A stretch of 64,000 bases of DNA from Akkermansia sp. (GTDB taxonomy: Bacteria > Verrucomicrobiota > Verrucomicrobiia > Verrucomicrobiales > Akkermansiaceae): NCBI GenBank assembly GCA_017471985.1, contig JAFURE010000019.1, positions 1-64,000 of the forward strand, read 5' to 3'. A program made the translations under genes and the position numbers. The notes beneath the pieces are model-generated. The model did not search any database, was not told the DNA's origin, and was given only the letters and a program-made list of their open reading frames with translations. Positions 11,991-22,400 of this stretch are shown one piece after another. Every line of letters begins with the position of its first letter. Positions within the stretch are counted from its first letter, which is position 1.

Positions 11991-12012
11991 GAAATTAAAG
12001 TCAGCTTTATCC

Positions 12013-13644
12013 TTACTGCTGCTGGGCAGCGGCCTTGCGAGCAGCTTTGGCAGCGGCCTTAGCGGCTTTCTCGGCCATCTTCTGCTTTTCCTCCTCGGAG
12101 AGAATGCGGGGGAATACCGGGCTGGGAGCCTGCACGGTGTGGCCATCCTTAAGAATGCCCCAGGCAAGAGTCTGCGGGCTGAGGGTGGCGGCATCCACCT
12201 GCAACTGGGAAAGAATGCGGGCGGAGGCATCGGGCAGCACGCAGGCGATGAGGTAACCGACCTGCACGCAGCTCTCCAGCAGGTGAGCCAGCACGCTCTG
12301 GAGCTCAGCCAGACGGGTCTCATCCTTAGCCAGAGCGAAGGGCTGAGTCTTCTCGATGAAGGCATTGCACTGACCTACATGGGCATTCAGTGCAGCGAGA
12401 GCATCTGCCGTGTTGTAGGCATTCATGCACTCGGCAAAGCGGGTTACAGTATCGGCCATGCTCTGACGCAGAGCCACAGAGAGCTCATCGGCAGCGGGCT
12501 CAGCAGCCACAGTCACGGTGCCGCCAAGGTAACGGGTGCACATGTTGAGGGAGCGATTGCAGAGGTTACCGAGGTCATTGGCAAGCTCGGTGTTGTAAAT
12601 CATCTTCATGCGCTCAGCGTCGTAGTCGCTGTCGTAGCCTGTCTTGGTATCGCGCACCAGATAGTAGCGCACGGCCTCGGGGCCGAACACATCGCACAGG
12701 TCGTTCGGGTCAACGATATTACCGAGCGACTTGGACATCTTCTCGCCCTTGATATTAAGCCAACCGTGAACCAGCAGGCGGGGCATCTCCTCATCGGAGA
12801 ATCCCATGGCATGCAGCATGCACAGCCAGTAAATACCGTGAGCGGGCACCAGAATATCCTTGCCGATAACCTCGCAAGCGGCGGGCCAGAGCTTGTTGAA
12901 GTCGGGCAGCGTAGTGTCGCCGTCAGCCAGATAACCGGCGAAAGAAATGTAGTTGATGAGAGCATCGAACCACACGTATGTTACGAACTCCGGGTCAAAG
13001 GGCAGCGGAATACCCCAGCTCAGACGGTCCTTCGGGCGGGAAATGCACAGGTCGTTGGTAGCGCGCTCAATGGCCTGCAGCAGGTCCTGGCGACGGAACT
13101 CAGGGGTCACGCAATCGGGATGTGTGGTCACGAACTCCTTCAGCCAGGCGGTGTGGGCCGTGAGGTTGAAGTACCAGTTCTCTTCCTCCAGCTCAATCAC
13201 CTGCCCCCATTCAGGGCCGAAGTTGCCGTCCTCACCGCGCTCCTTATCTGTCAGGAACTGCTCCTGACGCACGGAATAGAAGCCCTTGTAGGCCTTCTTG
13301 TACAGGCAGCCCTTCTCCTTCAGGTTGGTAAGGATTTTCTGCACACAGGCCTTGTGGCGGGAATCTGTCGTAGCAGCCCAGCCATCGTAGGAAATGCCGA
13401 GGCGCTCCCAGAGGGCAACAAAGCGCTTGGTCACCGTATCGGCATACTCCTGCGGCGACACGCCGGCCTCCTCAGCCTTCTGCTGTACCTTCTGGCCATG
13501 CTGGTCTACACCGGTCAGCAAAAAGGTGTCCTCGCCACACATTCGGTGCCAACGAGCCAGTACGTCCGCGAGGACCTTCTCATATGCATGACCGATGTGA
13601 GGAGAACCATTTGTATAATCAATTGCTGTAGTAATGTAGAACAT
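12013..13644 (-). CDS. metG: Methionyl-tRNA synthetase
   Basis: 543 residues of class Ia synthetase. The HIGH motif is at SPHIGHAYE (about 16-24) and KMSKS at GEKMSKSLGN (about 305). The connective peptide reads GFYSVRQEQF and lacks the zinc-binding CxxC pairs of the E. coli enzyme. The anticodon-binding helical domain follows, and the protein ends in a Lys/Ala-rich helix ([17 protein letters not shown]) rather than the dimerising tRNA-binding domain found in longer MetG. It charges tRNA-Met. A promoter sits 9 nt before the start and a strong terminator follows. Confidence 0.95.
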   Translation of the reverse strand: MFYITTAIDYTNGSPHIGHAYEKVLADVLARWHRMCGEDTFLLTGVDQHGQKVQQKAEEAGVSPQEYADTVTKRFVALWERLGISYDGWAATTDSRHKACVQKILTNLKEKGCLYKKAYKGFYSVRQEQFLTDKERGEDGNFGPEWGQVIELEEENWYFNLTAHTAWLKEFVTTHPDCVTPEFRRQDLLQAIERATNDLCISRPKDRLSWGIPLPFDPEFVTYVWFDALINYISFAGYLADGDTTLPDFNKLWPAACEVIGKDILVPAHGIYWLCMLHAMGFSDEEMPRLLVHGWLNIKGEKMSKSLGNIVDPNDLCDVFGPEAVRYYLVRDTKTGYDSDYDAERMKMIYNTELANDLGNLCNRSLNMCTRYLGGTVTVAAEPAADELSVALRQSMADTVTRFAECMNAYNTADALAALNAHVGQCNAFIEKTQPFALAKDETRLAELQSVLAHLLESCVQVGYLIACVLPDASARILSQLQVDAATLSPQTLAWGILKDGHTVQAPSPVFPRILSEEEKQKMAEKAAKAAAKAARKAAAQQQ

Positions 13645-13653
13645 AGCGCGGGA

Positions 13654-13682
13654 ATTGTACTACCGCCTACCCGTTCAGGCAA
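13654..13682 (-). promoter_or_regulatory. Promoter of metG
   Basis: TTGCCT (13677-13682), 17 nt, TACAAT (13654-13659), 9 nt before the ATG. The predicted leader is about 2 nt. Confidence 0.6.
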
Positions 13683-13727
13683 GCCAAATCTCAGACATAT
13701 CTCAGCGATTGAGGCTGAGGGAGGGCA

Positions 13728-14765
13728 TTATTTGGCATCGGGATGCAGTTTTGCGCCGCGCGAGCGCAGAAGTTCCCCCACGGCACGAGCCGCAGCAGAG
13801 TCCGTGCGCCCGAAGTGAATGCGCAACGAGTTCCCGCTGTTATTCAGGGCATTGATATCAGCCCCGGCATCCAGCAGAAGGCGTACAATTTCCACCGCGT
13901 TTTCGGGGTGAACCTGCGAGTCAACTCGCAGATGAAACAGGTAATCGGAGTAATAGTGTCTTCCCCGGCCACCTAAGCGGGGCTTTGCGCCTTTACTGAG
14001 GGCAAGTTCTGTCAGAGAGGGATCGTTGGGGTGCTTCAACATCAACACCAGCATGAGATTGCTGCCCTTCTCACCCACATGGCTGTCAGGGTGCACGCCA
14101 CCCTCCAGCAGGTCACGGATAAGTCCTGCGCTATAAAATCTCCAGCCAATCCACCACTTCTCCGTTCGTTTGCCGAGGTCCTGATTTCCATAGCGCAACA
14201 ACAGGCGTCGCATGTCATCGCTGTCGGTAAGTTCAAACGGGACCTCGTTCCGGGCAATATCCCAGATTCGGGTTATCGTTGCTGCATCCGGATCGGCGCC
14301 CTTATCCAACAGAGCCTTTGCCAGTTGCACGCGTTCCTCTTCATCGGTACGGTGTTCAAAACTGACCAGCATACCAAGCGGCGTATAGCCGGGGTACCCC
14401 ATGTCACGCCAGTTCTCCGGTCGGGCATTCACATCTGCCCCGGCATCGATGAGCGCCTGTGCCAGTGCCACATCTCCCACCATGCAGGCGGCCTGCAAAG
14501 CCGTGAATCCCGATGGGGAACGCAGCGACACATCACCACCGGCAGCCACCTGTCTGAGCAGCTCAGGCACTTCGCGCTGCCAGGCCTCGCGCCCCAGGTA
14601 ATCCCCGGCACGGGAATCATCCCCATGGAGATTGCGAGTGAGCGAGTCATCCTGTGCGGGCAAAGACTCTGCCAGTCGGGCACAATCCGCCTGCCAAGGC
14701 TCAGCGGCACGGCTCACAGGAAATACGGAAGTCAGTAATATCAGAGAATAAATGAGTCCTTTCAT
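13728..14765 (-). CDS. Exported ankyrin-repeat protein
   Basis: 345 residues with a signal peptide (MKGLIYSLILLTSVFPVSRA). Ankyrin repeats are clear at SGFTALQAACMVGDVALAQA with LIDAGADVNAR, then TPLGMLV-LAKALLDKGADPDAA, and again near the end at VEIVRLLLDAGADINALN-NSLR. Repeats between these are degenerate. Ankyrin repeats bind proteins; the partner is unknown. ATG 14765 is preferred over an upstream GTG at 14810 because the promoter -10 box lies between them. A second ankyrin protein occurs at 28673. Confidence 0.82.
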   Translation of the reverse strand: MKGLIYSLILLTSVFPVSRAAEPWQADCARLAESLPAQDDSLTRNLHGDDSRAGDYLGREAWQREVPELLRQVAAGGDVSLRSPSGFTALQAACMVGDVALAQALIDAGADVNARPENWRDMGYPGYTPLGMLVSFEHRTDEEERVQLAKALLDKGADPDAATITRIWDIARNEVPFELTDSDDMRRLLLRYGNQDLGKRTEKWWIGWRFYSAGLIRDLLEGGVHPDSHVGEKGSNLMLVLMLKHPNDPSLTELALSKGAKPRLGGRGRHYYSDYLFHLRVDSQVHPENAVEIVRLLLDAGADINALNNSGNSLRIHFGRTDSAAARAVGELLRSRGAKLHPDAK

Positions 14766-14795
14766 AGTATTGTCGTGTGTTCTTAACACCCAGTT

Positions 14796-14824
14796 ATCAT
14801 AACACGACACACATGAGACGTCAA
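14796..14824 (-). promoter_or_regulatory. Promoter of the ankyrin gene, with palindrome over the -10
   Basis: TTGACG (14819-14824), 17 nt, TATGAT (14796-14801), with a leader of about 23 nt. An 11-base palindrome, GTTATCATAAC (14793-14803), covers the -10 box and could be an operator. Confidence 0.5.
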
Positions 14825-14859
14825 TTCCGAATTGCGACTCGTTGCCCCTGCATGAATTA

Positions 14860-14883
14860 GGCGCTGCTCCGAAAAGCAGCGCC
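14860..14883 (-). terminator. Hairpin after rtcB
   Basis: GGCGCTGCT and AGCAGCGCC form a nine-pair stem just past the rtcB stop. Only a weak T-rich stretch follows. Confidence 0.6.
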
Positions 14884-14893
14884 TGACATCACA

Positions 14894-16111
14894 TTATCCG
14901 CGCTTGCGGAAAGATGGCTCGGCTTCCTCGGCCTTGAAATTGTAGAGGGGCTTGAAGATGTCCACCACATCGACGGTAGGCCCGATATGCTTCAGAATGG
15001 CATCCATGCCCTTGTAGGCCATGGGCGATTCATCGAGAGTTTTCTGAGTTACGGACGTTGTGTAAATCCCCTTCATCTGCTCCTGAAACTCTTCCATAGA
15101 CAGCTCACGGAAGGCCTGAGAGCGGCTCATGAGACGCCCCGCGCCGTGCGGTGCCGACTGGTTCCAGTCATCGTTCCCCTTGCCGGTACCGAAAATGCAA
15201 CCATCGCGCATATTGATAGGAATGAGCAACTTCTCGCCATCACGGGCAGAAATAGCCCCCTTACGCACGATATTGCTCTCGTGGTCAATGTAGTTGTGCG
15301 TGGTGTGGAACATATCCTGCACGTCAAGCCCGAGTCGTTTAATGATGATTTCTGCCATCACCTCGCGATTGCGCAGAGCAAACTGCTGACAGATTTTCAT
15401 ATCGTGCAGGTAGAGCTCGCGTCCCTCCCCCTCCAGATAGCAGAGGTCAACCGGCACGTCGGGCTGCAGCTCGCTCCACCGAGCACGGAGGGCCTTGATG
15501 GCACTCTGAATCTCACGCTGGCGCCCCTGAGCTTTCAGGTCAGCAATGAGAGCAGCCTCGACCGCTCCCCTGTCACCGATACCGGAGCGGCGGTCGATTG
15601 CCATGCTCTGGTAAAGTTCGCACACCTGCTTACCCAAGTTACGGGAACCGGAATGAATGATGAGGTAATAATTTCCCTGCGTATCGGCATCCACCTCCAC
15701 AAAGTGATTACCGCCACCCAGCGTACCGAGAGAGCAACGCAAATGCTTGGGGTGAGTCAATTGCTCCAGGCAATGCAGTGATTCCAGCGGGGCGAACTCC
15801 TCCACCGGCTCCCCGTGAACATACATGCCGCTGGGCACGTTGCGGTGCATGACATCATCGAGCGCGGCAAAATCGGGTTTCTGCTTTCCCAGAGAAACGG
15901 TCAGCATACCGCAGCCGATATCCACCCCCACAATGTTGGGGATTACCTTATCGCCCAAATCGGCCGTGAAGCCGATAACACAGCCCTTACCCGCGTGCAC
16001 ATCGGGCATGATACGCACCTTGGCATCGGCAAAGGCAGGCTGAGCCAGAAGACGCGAAATCTGTTTACGCGCCAATTCATCCACCTCATCGGTGTAGATT
16101 TTCAGGTTCAT
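14894..16111 (-). CDS. rtcB: RNA-splicing ligase RtcB
   Basis: 405 residues, the usual RtcB length. Metal ligands and active-site segments are present: MPDVHAGKGCVIGFT, VGVDIGCGM, LGTLGGGNHFVEV, IIHSGSRNLGK, and PHGAGRLMSRSQA with the histidine that carries GMP. RtcB joins RNA 2',3'-cyclic phosphate or 3'-phosphate ends to 5'-hydroxyl ends, in RNA repair. No archease or rtcA gene is beside it. The promoter is not clear: a TATAAC box lies 12 nt upstream without a good -35. Confidence 0.95.
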   Translation of the reverse strand: MNLKIYTDEVDELARKQISRLLAQPAFADAKVRIMPDVHAGKGCVIGFTADLGDKVIPNIVGVDIGCGMLTVSLGKQKPDFAALDDVMHRNVPSGMYVHGEPVEEFAPLESLHCLEQLTHPKHLRCSLGTLGGGNHFVEVDADTQGNYYLIIHSGSRNLGKQVCELYQSMAIDRRSGIGDRGAVEAALIADLKAQGRQREIQSAIKALRARWSELQPDVPVDLCYLEGEGRELYLHDMKICQQFALRNREVMAEIIIKRLGLDVQDMFHTTHNYIDHESNIVRKGAISARDGEKLLIPINMRDGCIFGTGKGNDDWNQSAPHGAGRLMSRSQAFRELSMEEFQEQMKGIYTTSVTQKTLDESPMAYKGMDAILKHIGPTVDVVDIFKPLYNFKAEEAEPSFRKRG

Positions 16112-16289
16112 GATTGTAGTTTGGTTATATTGTTGTCTGTTTTCTGTCTCCCGACAGATGGTAGTTCTTCAATGATACAGTGTTGCTCGACATATCGTCA
16201 GGCGTGCTGAAGAGTGTATGCATTTTCCCACATCCGTCAAGTGTAATCTGCAAGCATTCGGAGAAAATTGTGCTATTCTGTCATACAAG

Positions 16290-16317
16290 TTGACAGTCGC
16301 ACCACCTGTGCTATGGT
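16290..16317 (+). promoter_or_regulatory. Leaderless promoter of the first tandem small gene
   Basis: TTGACA (16290-16295), 16 nt, TATGGT (16312-16317), 6 nt before ATG 16324. The rest of the 212-nt gap to rtcB shows nothing else recognisable. Confidence 0.5.
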
Positions 16318-16323
16318 GGATTC

Positions 16324-16578
16324 ATGGACATCACCCCTACTACCACCCCCGACACCCCGGAATACCCTCACAGGCCCCACAGAGCAAAAGGAAAACCTAT
16401 AACAAAGCTGTCGGGAGAAATCCCCACTCCTATACCTATTCCTCCTCCCCATACATCAATTAATAAAGAGAAATCCTCATTCCGCCGTAAACAGAGCAGA
16501 AAACAGGCAAGCGAAAACCAGGCACCACACCGCCGCCACCTGATTCATCGGCAGCAGAGACCTATGAACGAACATTAA
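16324..16578 (+). CDS. Diverged member of the tandem small-protein family (no lipobox)
   Basis: 84 residues. The first 15 (MDITPTTTPDTPEYP) match the start of the paralogue at 17241, then the sequence departs: no Lys-Ala hydrophobic segment and no lipidation cysteine. The rest is Pro-, Lys-, His- and Arg-rich (PTPIPIPPPHTSIN, then basic). It has its own well-placed promoter, so it may be expressed, or it may be a decaying copy whose promoter survives. The change of character after residue 15 suggests a recombination or frameshift event. Confidence 0.45.
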   Translation: MDITPTTTPDTPEYPHRPHRAKGKPITKLSGEIPTPIPIPPPHTSINKEKSSFRRKQSRKQASENQAPHRRHLIHRQQRPMNEH

Positions 16579-16620
16579 GACGATTATTTAAAGTTGAAGC
16601 GGAAATGCGACGCAGTGGCA

Positions 16621-16650
16621 TTGACATACCACATTGACCTATGCTAAAAT
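16621..16650 (+). promoter_or_regulatory. Leaderless promoter of the lipoprotein run at 16657
   Basis: TTGACA (16621-16626), 18 nt, TAAAAT (16645-16650), 6 nt before a GTG start. Confidence 0.6.
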
Positions 16651-16656
16651 AAGGCC

Positions 16657-16914
16657 GTGAAAATATCCCCTGAACAGCGTAAGGCAAAATCTCCGTATCC
16701 GGTGCGTGGCAAGGCACTGGCCGCACTGGCGGCGACGGCTGCGGCACTGTTTTCCTGTGACCGACATGTCCCGGGCAGTGTGCCGTATCAAGCCGGGAGT
16801 TCAGACCCGACCGACCACAGCGCCGTGCCCGAAACACCGCCTGTAGAAGAGCCTATGATACTGGGTGGCGATGTACCCTACGTACCGGAACCGTCAGAGA
16901 GCAGTGAAAATTAA
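16657..16914 (+). CDS. Small lipoprotein, tandem extended-signal family, copy 2
   Basis: 85 residues starting at GTG. It reads VKISPEQRKAKSPYPVRGK, then an Ala/Leu-rich hydrophobic stretch ending LFSC (lipobox, Cys at residue 34), then an acidic Pro-rich tail ending YVPEPSESSEN. The pre-hydrophobic part is about 19 residues, longer than the 2-7 usual for a lipoprotein signal, and holds the YP motif shared by its neighbours. The 3' end overlaps the next gene by 11 nt. Function unknown. Confidence 0.6.
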   Translation: MKISPEQRKAKSPYPVRGKALAALAATAAALFSCDRHVPGSVPYQAGSSDPTDHSAVPETPPVEEPMILGGDVPYVPEPSESSEN

Positions 16915-17236
16915 AGCCACACAGACTGCTGCGCCGCTGTACCCCACGCTGGTGAAAGCCGTTACCGCTGCGGCAACGGCAGCGCTGCTGTCGGCCTGCG
17001 ATGAGCCGGCCCCTCAAAGACCCCCGGGTTTACGCCCCGCACCGGCACCTGTTGATGATTCCCGGCGTGCCGATATTCTCCCGGAGTCATACACCGCGGG
17101 GATATTCGTGAGCCCCGAGCGTTGTGATGTCCGCCCCGCACCGGCACCTCCGCCTTACGAGCCGAAAATAGAATTCGTTCCGGAGCCGGCGGACACCCCG
17201 CTCGATAATCCCTCAACAACACAAAACATTGATTAA
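16904..17236 (+). CDS. Small lipoprotein, tandem extended-signal family, copy 3
   Basis: 110 residues from GTG 16904. The start VKIKATQTAAPLYPTLVKA matches the family pattern, followed by an Ala-rich stretch to the lipobox LSAC (Cys about residue 32). The mature part is rich in Pro, Asp and Glu, with a repeated RPAPAP segment and a VPEP motif also seen in copy 2. A longer frame from ATG 16865 exists, but GTG 16904 aligns exactly with the start of the other copies. Function unknown. Confidence 0.6.
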   Translation: MKIKATQTAAPLYPTLVKAVTAAATAALLSACDEPAPQRPPGLRPAPAPVDDSRRADILPESYTAGIFVSPERCDVRPAPAPPPYEPKIEFVPEPADTPLDNPSTTQNID

Positions 17237-17240
17237 TACC

Positions 17241-17420
17241 ATGGACATTACCCCCACAAGCACAGAAACAGCACCGAAATACCCTGCTCTGGTGAAAGCA
17301 GCCGCAGTCGTGACAACTGCCGCAGCCCTCGTCGCCTGCCAGCAGCAACAGCAACAGCAGGTCATGGGGCCTCCCGGAGCCCCTCTGCCCCCGCAGGTAA
17401 CAGGCGGAGTCGTTAAGTAA
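17241..17420 (+). CDS. Small lipoprotein with poly-Gln, tandem family, copy 4
   Basis: 59 residues: MDITPTSTETAPKYPALVKA, an Ala/Val/Thr hydrophobic stretch, lipobox LVAC (Cys 33), then seven glutamines and a Gly/Pro-rich end (VMGPPGAPLPPQVTGGVVK). Signal peptidase II cutting would leave a mature peptide of about 27 residues. It starts 4 nt after copy 3. The Gln run is a CAG/CAA repeat that could change length by slippage. Function unknown. Confidence 0.6.
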   Translation: MDITPTSTETAPKYPALVKAAAVVTTAAALVACQQQQQQQVMGPPGAPLPPQVTGGVVK

Positions 17421-17447
17421 CATAACAATAAAGAAAGAACTCAGCAC

Positions 17448-17618
17448 ATGAAAATCGAATCTGATACCACCAAAACAGCCCCGAAATACCCCGCAGTGGT
17501 AAAGGCCGCGGCCGTGGCTACTACAGCAGCCGCAGCACTCACCGCCTGCCAGCAACAGCAGCAGCAGGGCGGAGTGCTGCCGCCCCCCCCGCCTCAGATT
17601 GAGAACGTACAGAAGTAA
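17448..17618 (+). CDS. Small lipoprotein with poly-Gln, tandem family, copy 5
   Basis: 56 residues: [20 protein letters not shown], an Ala-rich hydrophobic stretch, lipobox LTAC (Cys 34), six glutamines, then [16 protein letters not shown]. It is the closest relative of copy 4 ([14 protein letters not shown] core and the Gln run after Cys). It lies 14 nt before ruvB on the same strand, so it may be cotranscribed with ruvB. Function unknown. Confidence 0.6.
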
Positions 17619-17632
17619 ACACGAATCTTCAC

Positions 17633-18649
17633 ATGGCAGATTCCGTCTACTCCCGCATGGCGGAGACGACAGGCAGCTACGATGTGTCGCTGCGCCCGCC
17701 CGCATTCAGCGAGTTCTGCGGGCAGGATAAAGTAAAGGAGCGACTGTTACTCATGGTCGAGGCCGCCCGCATGCGTGGCGATGTGCTCGACCATGTACTG
17801 CTCAGCGGCCCGCCCGGACTGGGCAAAACCACACTGGCCAACATTATAGCCAATGCCGTGGGGCACAGGCTGCACACAACATCCGGTCCTCAGATTGAGA
17901 AGGCCGGGGATTTGGCCGGTATTCTCACCAACGTCGAGAAAGGCGACGTGCTCTTCATCGATGAAATTCACCGCCTGCACCCGGCGATTGAGGAGTACCT
18001 GTACCCGGCTATGGAGGACTATAGGCTCGACATCATTATCGACCAAGGCCCCAATGCCCGCTCCATTCAGCTCAATCTGCCCAAGTTCACTCTGGTGGGC
18101 GCCACGACCCGCGCCGGCATGCTCACCGGCCCGCTGCGCTCGCGTTTCGGCCTGATTAACAGGCTCGACTACTACAAACCCGACGAACTCTGCCAGATTC
18201 TGCACCGCTCGGCGGGGCTGCTCGATATTGACCTGCAGCCCGGTGGTGCACTTGCTATTGCCCGTCGTTCCCGCGGCACCCCCCGTGTGGCCAATGCCCT
18301 GCTGCGCTGGGTGCGCGACTACGCTCAGGTCAAGAGCGATGGCCGTATCAGCGACGACGTGGCCGAAGCTGCTCTCGGTATGATTGATATCGATGAAGAC
18401 GGGCTCGACGAAATGGACAAACGCTTGCTCGAAACCATGATTTACAAGTTCAACGGCGGCCCGGTAGGTCTGGCCTCGCTCGCGGTTGCCGTGGGTGAAG
18501 ACGAGAGCACTATCGAGGACGTCCACGAGCCATTCCTTATTATGCAGGGCTACATTAAGCGCACACCGCGCGGGCGCGAGGCCATGCCCGCGGCCTATCA
18601 GAAAATCGGCGCACCTCTCACCCGCGCTCAGGGAGAACTCCCCCTTTAA
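17633..18649 (+). CDS. ruvB: Holliday junction branch-migration helicase RuvB
   Basis: 338 residues, normal RuvB length. AAA+ motifs: [19 protein letters not shown] at the start, Walker [12 protein letters not shown] (about 61-71), Walker B FIDEIHRL, sensor 1 [10 protein letters not shown], arginine-finger region GPLRSRF. The winged-helix C-terminus includes [17 protein letters not shown]. RuvB is the hexameric motor that, with RuvA, migrates Holliday junctions. ruvA and ruvC are not in the window. It is followed 21 nt later by the amidase gene. Confidence 0.97.
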
Positions 18650-18670
18650 TTCCATCGAAACACAACCAGC

Positions 18671-19486
18671 ATGAAACGCCTTTTATTTGCCGCTGCAGCG
18701 GCAGTTTCCTTCCTCATCCCCTCCTGCTACCAGATGCAGATGCAGCAGATTGCCTACAACTCAAAAGTTGTCGTGCTCGATATCGGCCACTATTACGAGC
18801 CGGTGCGCGGCGGTCAGGGCGCCCGCACGCCCGATGCCAGCAAGGGCGGCGTCATTGAGGAAACGGAGTTCTGGTACCGCTACGCCGGTGAGGTCAAGAA
18901 AACCGTCGAGGCTGCCGGCTATACCTGCCTGATATGCAACCGTGGCGATGTACCGACCAATCCCAAATTGGCGGCGGCCGCCGAGAAAGCCGGGGTTCAC
19001 CACGTGAAGTCCCCCATCCCCACCGCCATTTATCGCTCCACTCACCACCCGCACCGTATAGCCGTGGGCATGCTGAGCACCAACTACGCGCTCGACCAAC
19101 AGCCCGGAGCCGTGGTGTTCCTGCACCACAACAGCAACTCCGCCACCTGGAAGGTGTGCAACAAGGGGGCTTTCTACTGCAATGAGGCCGGCGTGCGTCT
19201 GGCTCAGACCATGGCGCAGGTGATGACACGCGATATTCTCGATGCCCCCAAGGACGGTATGCCCAACAACGGCGTGCCCTGCGGCGTAGTTTTGCGCACT
19301 GATGGCCGCCGTGGCGGCGGTGATTGGCTGAATGCCTGCAACGAATCGTACGTTCCTGCCGTCATAACTGAAGTAGCCTATCTTTCCAACCCCGAGCATG
19401 CACGCTATCTCAACAAACACGAAAACGCCGTGCGCTTTGCTCAGGCAGTTGGGCGGGGCATCGTCGAATATCTCAATAAACGTTAA
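18671..19486 (+). CDS. N-acetylmuramoyl-L-alanine amidase (Amidase_3) lipoprotein
   Basis: 271 residues with a lipoprotein signal (MKRLLFAAAAAVSFLIPSC). Zinc-amidase motifs are in order: LDIGHYYEP (first His), VIEETEFWYR (Glu), VVFLHHNSNS (second His), and the catalytic Glu in ITEVAYLSNPEHARYL. These enzymes cut the bond between muramic acid and the stem peptide, as in cell separation. An insertion of about 50 residues between the second and third ligands contains an HHPHRIAVGM segment. It begins 21 nt after ruvB and ends 4 nt before the helicase start. Confidence 0.85.
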   Translation: MKRLLFAAAAAVSFLIPSCYQMQMQQIAYNSKVVVLDIGHYYEPVRGGQGARTPDASKGGVIEETEFWYRYAGEVKKTVEAAGYTCLICNRGDVPTNPKLAAAAEKAGVHHVKSPIPTAIYRSTHHPHRIAVGMLSTNYALDQQPGAVVFLHHNSNSATWKVCNKGAFYCNEAGVRLAQTMAQVMTRDILDAPKDGMPNNGVPCGVVLRTDGRRGGGDWLNACNESYVPAVITEVAYLSNPEHARYLNKHENAVRFAQAVGRGIVEYLNKR

Positions 19487-19490
19487 TCTT

Positions 19491-22400
19491 ATGAGCTTTA
19501 CCATCAAAGCGGATTTCAGTCCCTACCTTTCCGTAGTCTATCTCAGTAACCGCAAGCCACTGTTCGATGAAATTATCATCCAAAGCGATACGGTTGTCGA
19601 CAATCTGACACTACGCATCAGCACAAGCCCGGAGTATGTCACCTCACAGACTTACGATATCGGCGCACTGATGGCCAATACAGAGCGCCGCATTCTCCCG
19701 ACTGAGCAGACTGACTTTGATCTTACCGTGCTCAAAGCTCTGACAGAAGAAGAACCGGGCAAAATCCACTTTGAAATATGCGATGGCGAACAGGTTCTCC
19801 ATAGGGAAAGCCGAGAACTTAATTGGTTACCGGGCAACACATGGGTACTGGGTAAAAACGCCAAGTTCCCGGAGCTGCTGGCAGCGCTGGTTCAGCCCAA
19901 CGACCCCGCCGTAGATAAGGTTCTGCACTTTGCCGGGGAACTCCTCGCCAACAAAGGCCTGAACCCCGACTGGAACGGTTACAAGAGCGAACCGAATGCC
20001 ATTCTGAACAAACTCCACGCCATTTGGCTCACCCTGAGCGGTTACGGAATCAACTACGCCCTGCCGCCCCGAGGCGAAATCGATGCAAGCGTGGGCGTAC
20101 ACCAGAAGGTTCGAACCCCCTCACAAATCATGCAGGGTGGTTGCGCCACATGTCTGGACACCACCATGCTCATGGCCGCCGTTATCGCACAGGCTGGGTA
20201 CAACCCGCTCGTCATCGTCATACCCAATCATGCCTTTGTCGGCATGCTGATGAAGGATGAGTGCATGACCTCACACATCACTCACGACAGCGCTATTCTA
20301 CGTAACCTTGTAGAACTGAATGAACTGGTTGTGCTCGAAACAACCATGCTCACCAAGTGCGAAAACGGATTGCAGTTTTCCTTTGCCGATGCTATGGAGA
20401 AAGGTAAGCAAAATCTGTACAAAACAGAAAGTGCGACGGCCTACGACATCGCAAAAATCTGGGCTTCGGGAGTGCGCCCCATCGGCACCGAACGCCCGGA
20501 GGACGCACCGAGCATTGTCAATGAGACAACTGCCAATGGTGGCAATGCCGAGTTCCTGCCCGAAATGAGCGCAGAGGATTGGGAAAAGGCCATGTCACTG
20601 GTCAACTCCCGCAAACGCACCCGCATGGAAAACTGGCAGCTGAAATTGCTCGACCTTTCCATGCGCAACAACCTGCTCAATTCACGGGCAGACAAAACGC
20701 AGCTTCACATCGTACTGAACAACTCCGCTCGCCTGGAAGATGACCTCAACAATGGTAAGGTTTTCAAACTTTCGGCAGTTCCCCACACATTCGCCCTCGA
20801 TGAGGCGTTGAAAAAGGAAGATAAATCCGATGCTCAGGCCATTATCAATCAGCACGCGCTCGAAATGTATGAAAAGAACGAGCTGCTGGCTATCAGCAAT
20901 AAAACTTTGCTGGATAACGAAGAACTTCAGAAACGTCTCTACAAACTCTACCTTGCCGCCCGAAAAAACCTGGAAGAGAGTGGCTACAACACCCTTTACA
21001 TTGCCTGCGGTTTCCTGAAATGGATTCGCAAGGAAAAAAATCAGACCCTCTACGCCCCCCTTCTGCTCATTCCGGTTCGCATTTCCCGAAAAAGCGTGAA
21101 GAGCGGCTTCACCCTGCGCACGTCGGATGAAGAAACCCGCATCAACCTTACCTTGCTGGAACTGCTCAAAACCGAGTACAGCCTGCGCATTCCCACCCTT
21201 GAGGGAGAATTGCCGACAGACAAGAGCGGGCTGGATGTCTGCCTCATTTTCGATACAGTACGCCGTGCCATCAAGGACATTGAAGGGTGGGAGGTACAGG
21301 ATACCTGTTCGCTTGGCATCTTCTCCTTCGCCAAGTACCTGATGTGGAAGGATCTTTGCGACCGTAAGGATGAGCTGATGGCCAACCCCATCGTCCGCCA
21401 TCTGGCAAATGAAAATCGTGAAAACTTCCCCACTCAGGTAGGGTTCCCCGACCCGGCTACGCTTGATACCGATGCAGACGCACAACGCATCTACACCCCG
21501 CTCTCGTCGGACTCCTCGCAGCTCTCAGCCATTCTGGCAGCCGGGCGCGGCAAGAACTTCGTGCTCATCGGGCCGCCCGGTACCGGTAAGAGCCAGACCA
21601 TCTCCAACATGATAGCCCACTGTCTGGGACATGGCAAGACTGTGCTCTTCGTCGCTGAGAAGGCCGCAGCTCTCTCGGTTGTGTACAAACGACTTAAGCG
21701 CATCGGTCTTGGCGACTTCTGCCTGGAGCTCCATTCCAACAAGGCCATCAAAAAAGAAGTCCTGAACCAATTCAAAACAGCTATCGACAATTCTGCGATT
21801 AAGTCAAAGAACAGCCAATGGAGTAAGAAAGTCAGCACGATTCAGCTCATCCGCGAGGGACTCAATCTCCTACCGCAGGCGCTGCACACCCCCTACCCGG
21901 ATGGCACAACACTGTATGAGGACATCTGCCTGCTGAGCGATTCTCAGTCTTTCCTGCTGATTCCGCCCCCGGCCGAAGACATGCTGACTGTCAGCGCTGA
22001 ACGCAAAACTGAACTACAGGAACGCGCACATGAATTCAATATATCATTTGCACCGGTAGCCCACCTCTACCCGGGTATTGCCGTCTATTTGACAGCAACT
22101 GACTACAGCCTGCAGTGGGAGGATGATTTGGCCGAGCTACTCCCGCGCTTCATCAAAGCAGTTGAAAAGCGTGACGTAGCACTCACCATGCTTATGAACA
22201 GCGTGGGTCTGACAGATGAGGACTACAACGAATCTCGCAACCAAATTTGCAAACTGCTGTTGCTTGCCGCCCGTACAGCAGGTCAGGACAACAGCCTGCT
22301 GATGCCGGAAACAGCGGAGGCACAACTACTCAGCTTGCAGGAGGCCGTAGCGCACGCCCGCAACTACCACCTCTACAAGGAAGGGCTTACCCTGCCTTAC

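Follow-up and report, generated by a model that had tools for sequence, protein, structure and literature searches.

The small genes between rtcB and ruvB in the window (by which we mean the whole 64,000-nucleotide stretch of Akkermansia DNA under analysis) probably encode lipoproteins that serve as RiPP-like precursors for a radical SAM/SPASM peptide maturase, as suggested by comparison of their sequences across the genus. On this reading a single N-terminus would act both as the leader recognized by the maturase and as a lipoprotein signal peptide, which explains more than an export signal alone. With somewhat less assurance, we lean towards the broader proposal that these genes typify a new class of Akkermansia lipoprotein RiPPs, in which leader and signal peptide share one N-terminus, signal peptidase II also serves to cleave off the leader, and the repeated PQxLxG[GV] cores are modified by a new radical SAM/SPASM subfamily, which acts in trans on unlinked arrays in some lineages, with soluble precursors bearing the same leader also being substrates.

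Architecture of the array

The array is flanked by rtcB on the minus strand (14894-16111) and by ruvB on the plus strand (from 17633), and comprises four overlapping or closely spaced small genes, at 16657, 16904, 17241 and 17448, with a damaged fifth at 16324 ahead of them, all on the plus strand. The first precursor lipoprotein (16657-16914; GTG start, 85 amino acids, leader codons 1-15 at 16657-16701) has its lipobox cysteine at residue 34 and contains a core-like MILGGDV. The second (16904-17236; 110 amino acids, leader codons 1-14 at 16904-16945) begins at a GTG that overlaps the gene at 16657, has its lipobox cysteine at residue 32 and displays only a weak core (TAGIF). The third (17241-17420; ATG start, 59 amino acids, leader codons 1-15 at 17241-17285) combines Cys33 with a poly-Q stretch and a core, PQVTGGV, at about 17391-17411, and the fourth (17448-17618; ATG start, 56 amino acids, leader codons 1-15 at 17448-17492) has Cys34, poly-Q and PPPPPQ without a QxhxG core. 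Their lipoboxes are LVAC, LTAC, LSAC and LFSC.

These four tandem ORFs share the pattern M-x-[IV]-x(6-9)-P-x-YP, behind which come a hydrophobic stretch and the lipobox cysteine at residues 32-34. Invariant in all four are M1, I3, Y14-P15, K19-A20, T-A-A, L and C, with an Ala-rich stretch between the Lys-Ala pair and the cysteine. The motif and the positions of the cysteines bear out the original prediction of a four-gene tandem lipoprotein family with a long conserved leader; the (S/A)-P-x-Y-P element described there is correct for the other genes and fails in 16657, which reads S-P-Y-P without the intervening residue.

The damaged gene (16324-16637) is the remnant of a soluble array-first gene. 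Its ORF at 16324-16578 begins with the same first 15 residues as the lipoprotein precursors (leader MDITPTTTPDTPEYP), and has neither a hydrophobic stretch nor any other membrane segment; frame 1 reaches a stop at 16578, and the C-terminal part (..RRSGIDIPH) runs on in another frame to 16637. Relative to the intact soluble first gene at L125:5616-5978 it is a frameshifted copy, the first ~41 residues of the two being 49% identical. Soluble first genes of this family, which open some arrays, encode the leader, a GxVxxP-like box and a helical C-terminal domain; an AlphaFold2 model of one, of low confidence (mean pLDDT 69.5), shows three helices at 63-114.

Upstream of the first gene lies a promoter (16290-16323) with TTGACA at 16290-16295, a 16-bp spacer and TATGGT at 16312-16317, which leaves 6 nt to the ATG and predicts a leaderless transcript. 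The promoter of gene 16657 (16621-16656) is similarly built, with TTGACA at 16621-16626, an 18-bp spacer, TAAAAT at 16645-16650 and 6 nt to the GTG, and its -35 element sits inside the final codons (..IDI..) of the preceding gene. Array-first promoters take the general form TTG(A/C)-N16-18-TAnnnT, and in 27 of the 30 detected the -10 element ends 6-9 nt ahead of the start codon, against ~0.8 expected. This geometry predicts leaderless transcripts for array-first genes; Cappable-seq in A. muciniphila found 10% of transcription start sites to be leaderless (PMC4782308). The IDI codons at array junctions are themselves the TTGACA -35 element of the next promoter, and we accordingly rejected the shared "IDIP" ends of soluble first genes as protein homology and judged the soluble family on other residues and on copies outside arrays. 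An Rfam search over 12000-22000 gave no match.

The leader and the tail motif

Of 58 Akkermansia genomes, 36 yielded members of the leader family in profile searches; the remaining genera of the family and order gave essentially no members. A DNA pattern for M-x-I-x-P-x8-Y-P gave ~79 matches in the 58 genomes, the majority of those inspected being family members, while control patterns gave 27 with P and Y swapped and ~4 when read backwards; the leader pattern exceeds chance. One leader-like match in G004 (MGIHPPQKNAKSLYP) lies inside an apparently decayed enzyme gene and was set aside as chance. From codon 2 to the YP, substitutions at codon positions 1, 2 and 3 number 16, 8 and 34, with a dN/dS of 0.17, and this concentration of changes at third positions indicates that the leader is translated and constrained. 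Computed over orthologue and paralogue pairs, dN/dS in close pairs is ~0.17 for the n-region, 0.26 for the hydrophobic stretch and 0.47 for the mature part, and that of the n-region is 0.11 in more distant pairs, so that, of the protein's three parts, the leader experiences the strongest purifying selection.

Counted from the start codon, the YP invariably ends at residue 14-16, whereas the position of the cysteine varies from 24 to 36. Because the YP is fixed while the cysteine moves, the motif is measured from the N-terminus and not from the hydrophobic stretch. Nearly all members have a hydrophobic stretch behind the leader, of either lipoprotein or signal-peptidase-I type; a simple rule identifies the lipoprotein type, with its lipobox cysteine, in 64 of 77 members and misses some others. 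We also considered a short signal peptide initiated from an internal GTG (e.g. V18-K19 in 17241), and rejected this since such a codon occurs in only 21 of the 64 lipoprotein members and selection on the upstream leader contradicts it. The same leader is found on soluble proteins without a membrane segment (L125:5616, L044/L126 and L049:3042), and stand-alone soluble leader genes occur on contig 79 of G006 and contig 48 of G030.

The tails behind the cysteine share a motif of their own. In 59 non-redundant tails, glutamine occurs four residues before glycine 106 times against 34 expected and leucine two before it 55 times against 14, with further enrichment of proline five before and valine two after, yielding P-Q-x-L-x-G-x-V. 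The count of QxhxG in non-redundant tails is 70, against 9 in shuffled tails. The repeated form is PQxLxG[GV], of which longer tails contain up to about five copies (L185). Within the window the cores are partly degenerate, strict QxhxG occurring in 17241 only and none being present in 17448. Of 41 CQQ lipoproteins with the leader, 29 have the core; of 19 that lack the leader, one does, and this sole exception is an internal-start artefact of window gene 17241. Akkermansia also encodes short-signal poly-Q lipoproteins (MKTIAILALTAAALVSCQQQQQQ...) that have the same CQQQ mature start and a similar length to the precursors; unlike them, they have no YP leader and no QxhxG core, and they occur across the genus, maturase-less genomes included. 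Examples (MKTIAILALTAAALVSCQQQQQ...) lie on contigs 18 (L002/L003) and 23 (L004) of G000, the window's own genome.

Several earlier expectations can be read against these results. The contrast between a conserved leader and changing tails, and the purifying selection on the leader proposed as a check, are both upheld by the dN/dS values and the third-position bias, and the homologues sought elsewhere were found by profile search within the genus. The impression that no described family is involved likewise agrees with database searches, in which five window proteins matched no Pfam family and four matched no NCBIfam family at E<=1, one related precursor giving only unrelated weak matches in the latter. 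The suggestion that the array always precedes ruvB does not hold: this is so in about 10 genomes, and elsewhere the array lies ahead of the radical SAM gene or apart. The nearest named locus, L125 from an Akkermansia sp. MAG of sheep cecum, conserves the order rtcB - array - ruvB, and a scan of named genomes found two relatives only, both Akkermansia MAGs.

The associated radical SAM/SPASM enzyme

At many loci the leader array is directly followed by a gene for an enzyme of ~375 residues that has the radical SAM CxxxCxxC and GGEP motifs together with SPASM-like cysteines; C20, C24, C27 and nine C-terminal cysteines are invariant. In Pfam it scores above the cut-off for Radical_SAM and at 17-18.5 bits for SPASM, just below that model's 21.5. 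Its NCBIfam matches are mostly peptide maturases, and its best solved relative by sequence is a radical SAM protein (5wgg). The protein starts only ~10-15 residues before the cluster motif, which leaves no room for an N-terminal RRE.

The distributions of leader and enzyme coincide closely: 35 of the 58 Akkermansia genomes contain both, 1 the leader only, 3 the enzyme only and 19 neither, an agreement in 54 of 58 (Fisher p 3e-11, uncorrected for shared ancestry, and with draft genomes that may miss genes). The genome with leaders only (G031) has five leader genes and no maturase found in a draft that is 93% complete. The enzyme-only genomes are G015, G026 and G054, the first of which has one YP-bearing lipoprotein gene upstream of the enzyme. 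Leader genes lie less than 1 kb upstream and on the same strand in 30 of 34 distinct parsed enzyme loci (29 by rule, less duplicates, plus L206/L213 read by eye), and in 12 enzyme loci a leader gene overlaps the enzyme start by 4 bp. Divergent enzymes (G054, G183; L214, L225) are paired with a divergent class of upstream lipoprotein leaders, YPTRxEFxxLLKxG, in which the YP is kept. In locus L041 (G013:C2:314000-331000) the array adjoining the maturase is expanded to at least 10 leader genes, some of them for proteins of 170-400 residues with signal-peptidase-I-type starts and internal repeats. At L178 (G034) a leader gene at position about -401 relative to the maturase encodes a lipoprotein whose tail is His-rich and not Gln-rich (CHHHHNSAPTYHHV...). 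Beyond Akkermansia, the genera searched in the family and order gave only distant relatives of the maturase (G086 and G316; L228 and L229, E 4e-84 and 9e-79). The analysis identified no gene for a protease, a transporter or any other tailoring step.

Of the four enzyme loci without upstream leader genes, three are those of G000, G024 and G051 (contig 141), genomes of the lineage whose arrays lie between rtcB and ruvB. No maturase gene is present in the window; a survey of the window's genome by profile searches located an intact, unlinked one at G000:C34:28283-29392. In this lineage the maturase occupies one conserved locus, at which G000, G022, G024 and G051 are ~78% identical in nucleotide sequence across 11 kb, and purifying selection acts on the enzyme (dN/dS about 0.10). 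Being intact and unlinked, it would act in trans on the window's precursors.

Among known systems, the closest maturase model is that of the PapA/PapB ranthipeptide system (NF047865), which similarly involves a leader-dependent SPASM peptide maturase acting on short precursors. The Akkermansia enzymes score 199.2, 219.3 and 216.5 bits against it, below the curated cut-off of 340, and PapA precursors are not known to be lipoproteins. PapB links Cys to Asp/Glu (PMC9413430). Such Cys-Xn-Asp/Glu arrangements are not a general feature of the cores here: a cysteine followed by Asp/Glu within seven residues occurs in 16 of 84 tails, and any cysteine beyond the lipobox in only 19. Since the other 65 tails lack a further cysteine, PapB-type Cys-Asp links are unlikely. 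TIGR04133 and TIGR04134, the radical SAM-associated putative lipoproteins of Bacteroidales, resemble the present system in pairing a lipoprotein-type precursor with a radical SAM protein, but the four window precursors have no NCBIfam match at E<=1 and neither family is among the 25 models listed for the maturase.

Alternative readings and the proposed pathway

One alternative sees in the leader an extension of the signal peptide with a role in export or localization, slowing or steering Sec translocation, and in the radical SAM gene a neighbor that does nothing to these proteins. The hydrophobic stretch behind the leader in nearly all members fits this, and roles of this kind are known for other long conserved n-regions (PMC2805444, PMC5962339): the ESPR of autotransporters (PF13018) and the YSIRK motif of Gram-positive surface proteins (PF04650) likewise place a conserved motif in an extended n-region. 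However, the window proteins match neither in Pfam, the same 15 residues are found on soluble proteins without a membrane segment, and the spacing of the YP is set from Met1 and not from the hydrophobic stretch; the linkage to a maturase and the core shared by the tails would also be left unexplained. We therefore regard this alternative as unlikely, and the original view that the family is kept for its export signal is probably wrong: the lock of the motif to the N-terminus, the soluble carriers and the linkage and co-occurrence with the maturase speak against it, and the tails, far from arbitrary, share the PQxLxG core.

That the leader is merely the retained ancestral sequence of one expanding family, with free tails and no enzyme acting, would suit tandem duplicates with similar leaders and divergent tails, but we find it quite improbable in view of the greater constraint on the n-region than on the tail in close orthologues, the strongly enriched motif common to the tails, and the absence of leaders where the maturase is absent. 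A function of the N-terminal 15 codons at the level of RNA or translation, through leaderless initiation or ribosome pausing and not as a protein signal, could draw on the promoter geometry (27 of 30 array-first promoters, against 0.8 expected) and on the leaderless transcripts common in A. muciniphila (PMC4782308). Nevertheless, the non-first genes 17241 and 17448 have the same leader without such promoters, and the concentration of change at synonymous sites implies that it is the amino acids that are conserved, making this reading very improbable.

Returning to the precursor reading, the combination of leader, core and maturase matches the layout of a RiPP system. We propose that residues 1-15 (M-x-I-x-P...P-x-YP) would constitute the recognition leader, the hydrophobic stretch with the lipobox an ordinary lipoprotein signal peptide, and the Q/P-rich tail the carrier of one or more PQxLxG[GV] cores. 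After translation, which for array-first genes would proceed from leaderless mRNA as the observed promoter geometry suggests, a cytosolic maturase would bind the leader and modify the core. In most maturase-bearing Akkermansia its gene lies directly downstream of the precursors, and in the window lineage the enzyme would be supplied from its other locus in trans. Since the leader forms the n-region of the lipoprotein signal peptide, modification should precede Sec export, and the lipoproteins are probably altered chemically inside the cell. Following export and lipidation, signal peptidase II should remove the recognition leader and the signal peptide together, for the same reason, and a small modified lipoprotein would remain in the envelope.

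The unusual feature of this radical SAM/SPASM peptide-maturation system would be that the leader forms the n-region of a lipoprotein signal peptide. Having signal peptidase II take off the leader would also be out of the ordinary, as neither signal peptidase nor lipoproteins figure in a review of how RiPP leaders are removed. A literature search found no radical SAM peptide maturation system reported in Akkermansia, and both the genus and lipoproteins are missing from a review that covers radical SAM RiPPs of microbiomes. The maturation of peptides by radical SAM enzymes yields a wealth of new chemistry. If the present reading is true, the envelope of this much-studied gut genus bears small lipoproteins modified by an enzyme, and experiments could start from a defined leader and candidate site and from natural variants by the dozen.
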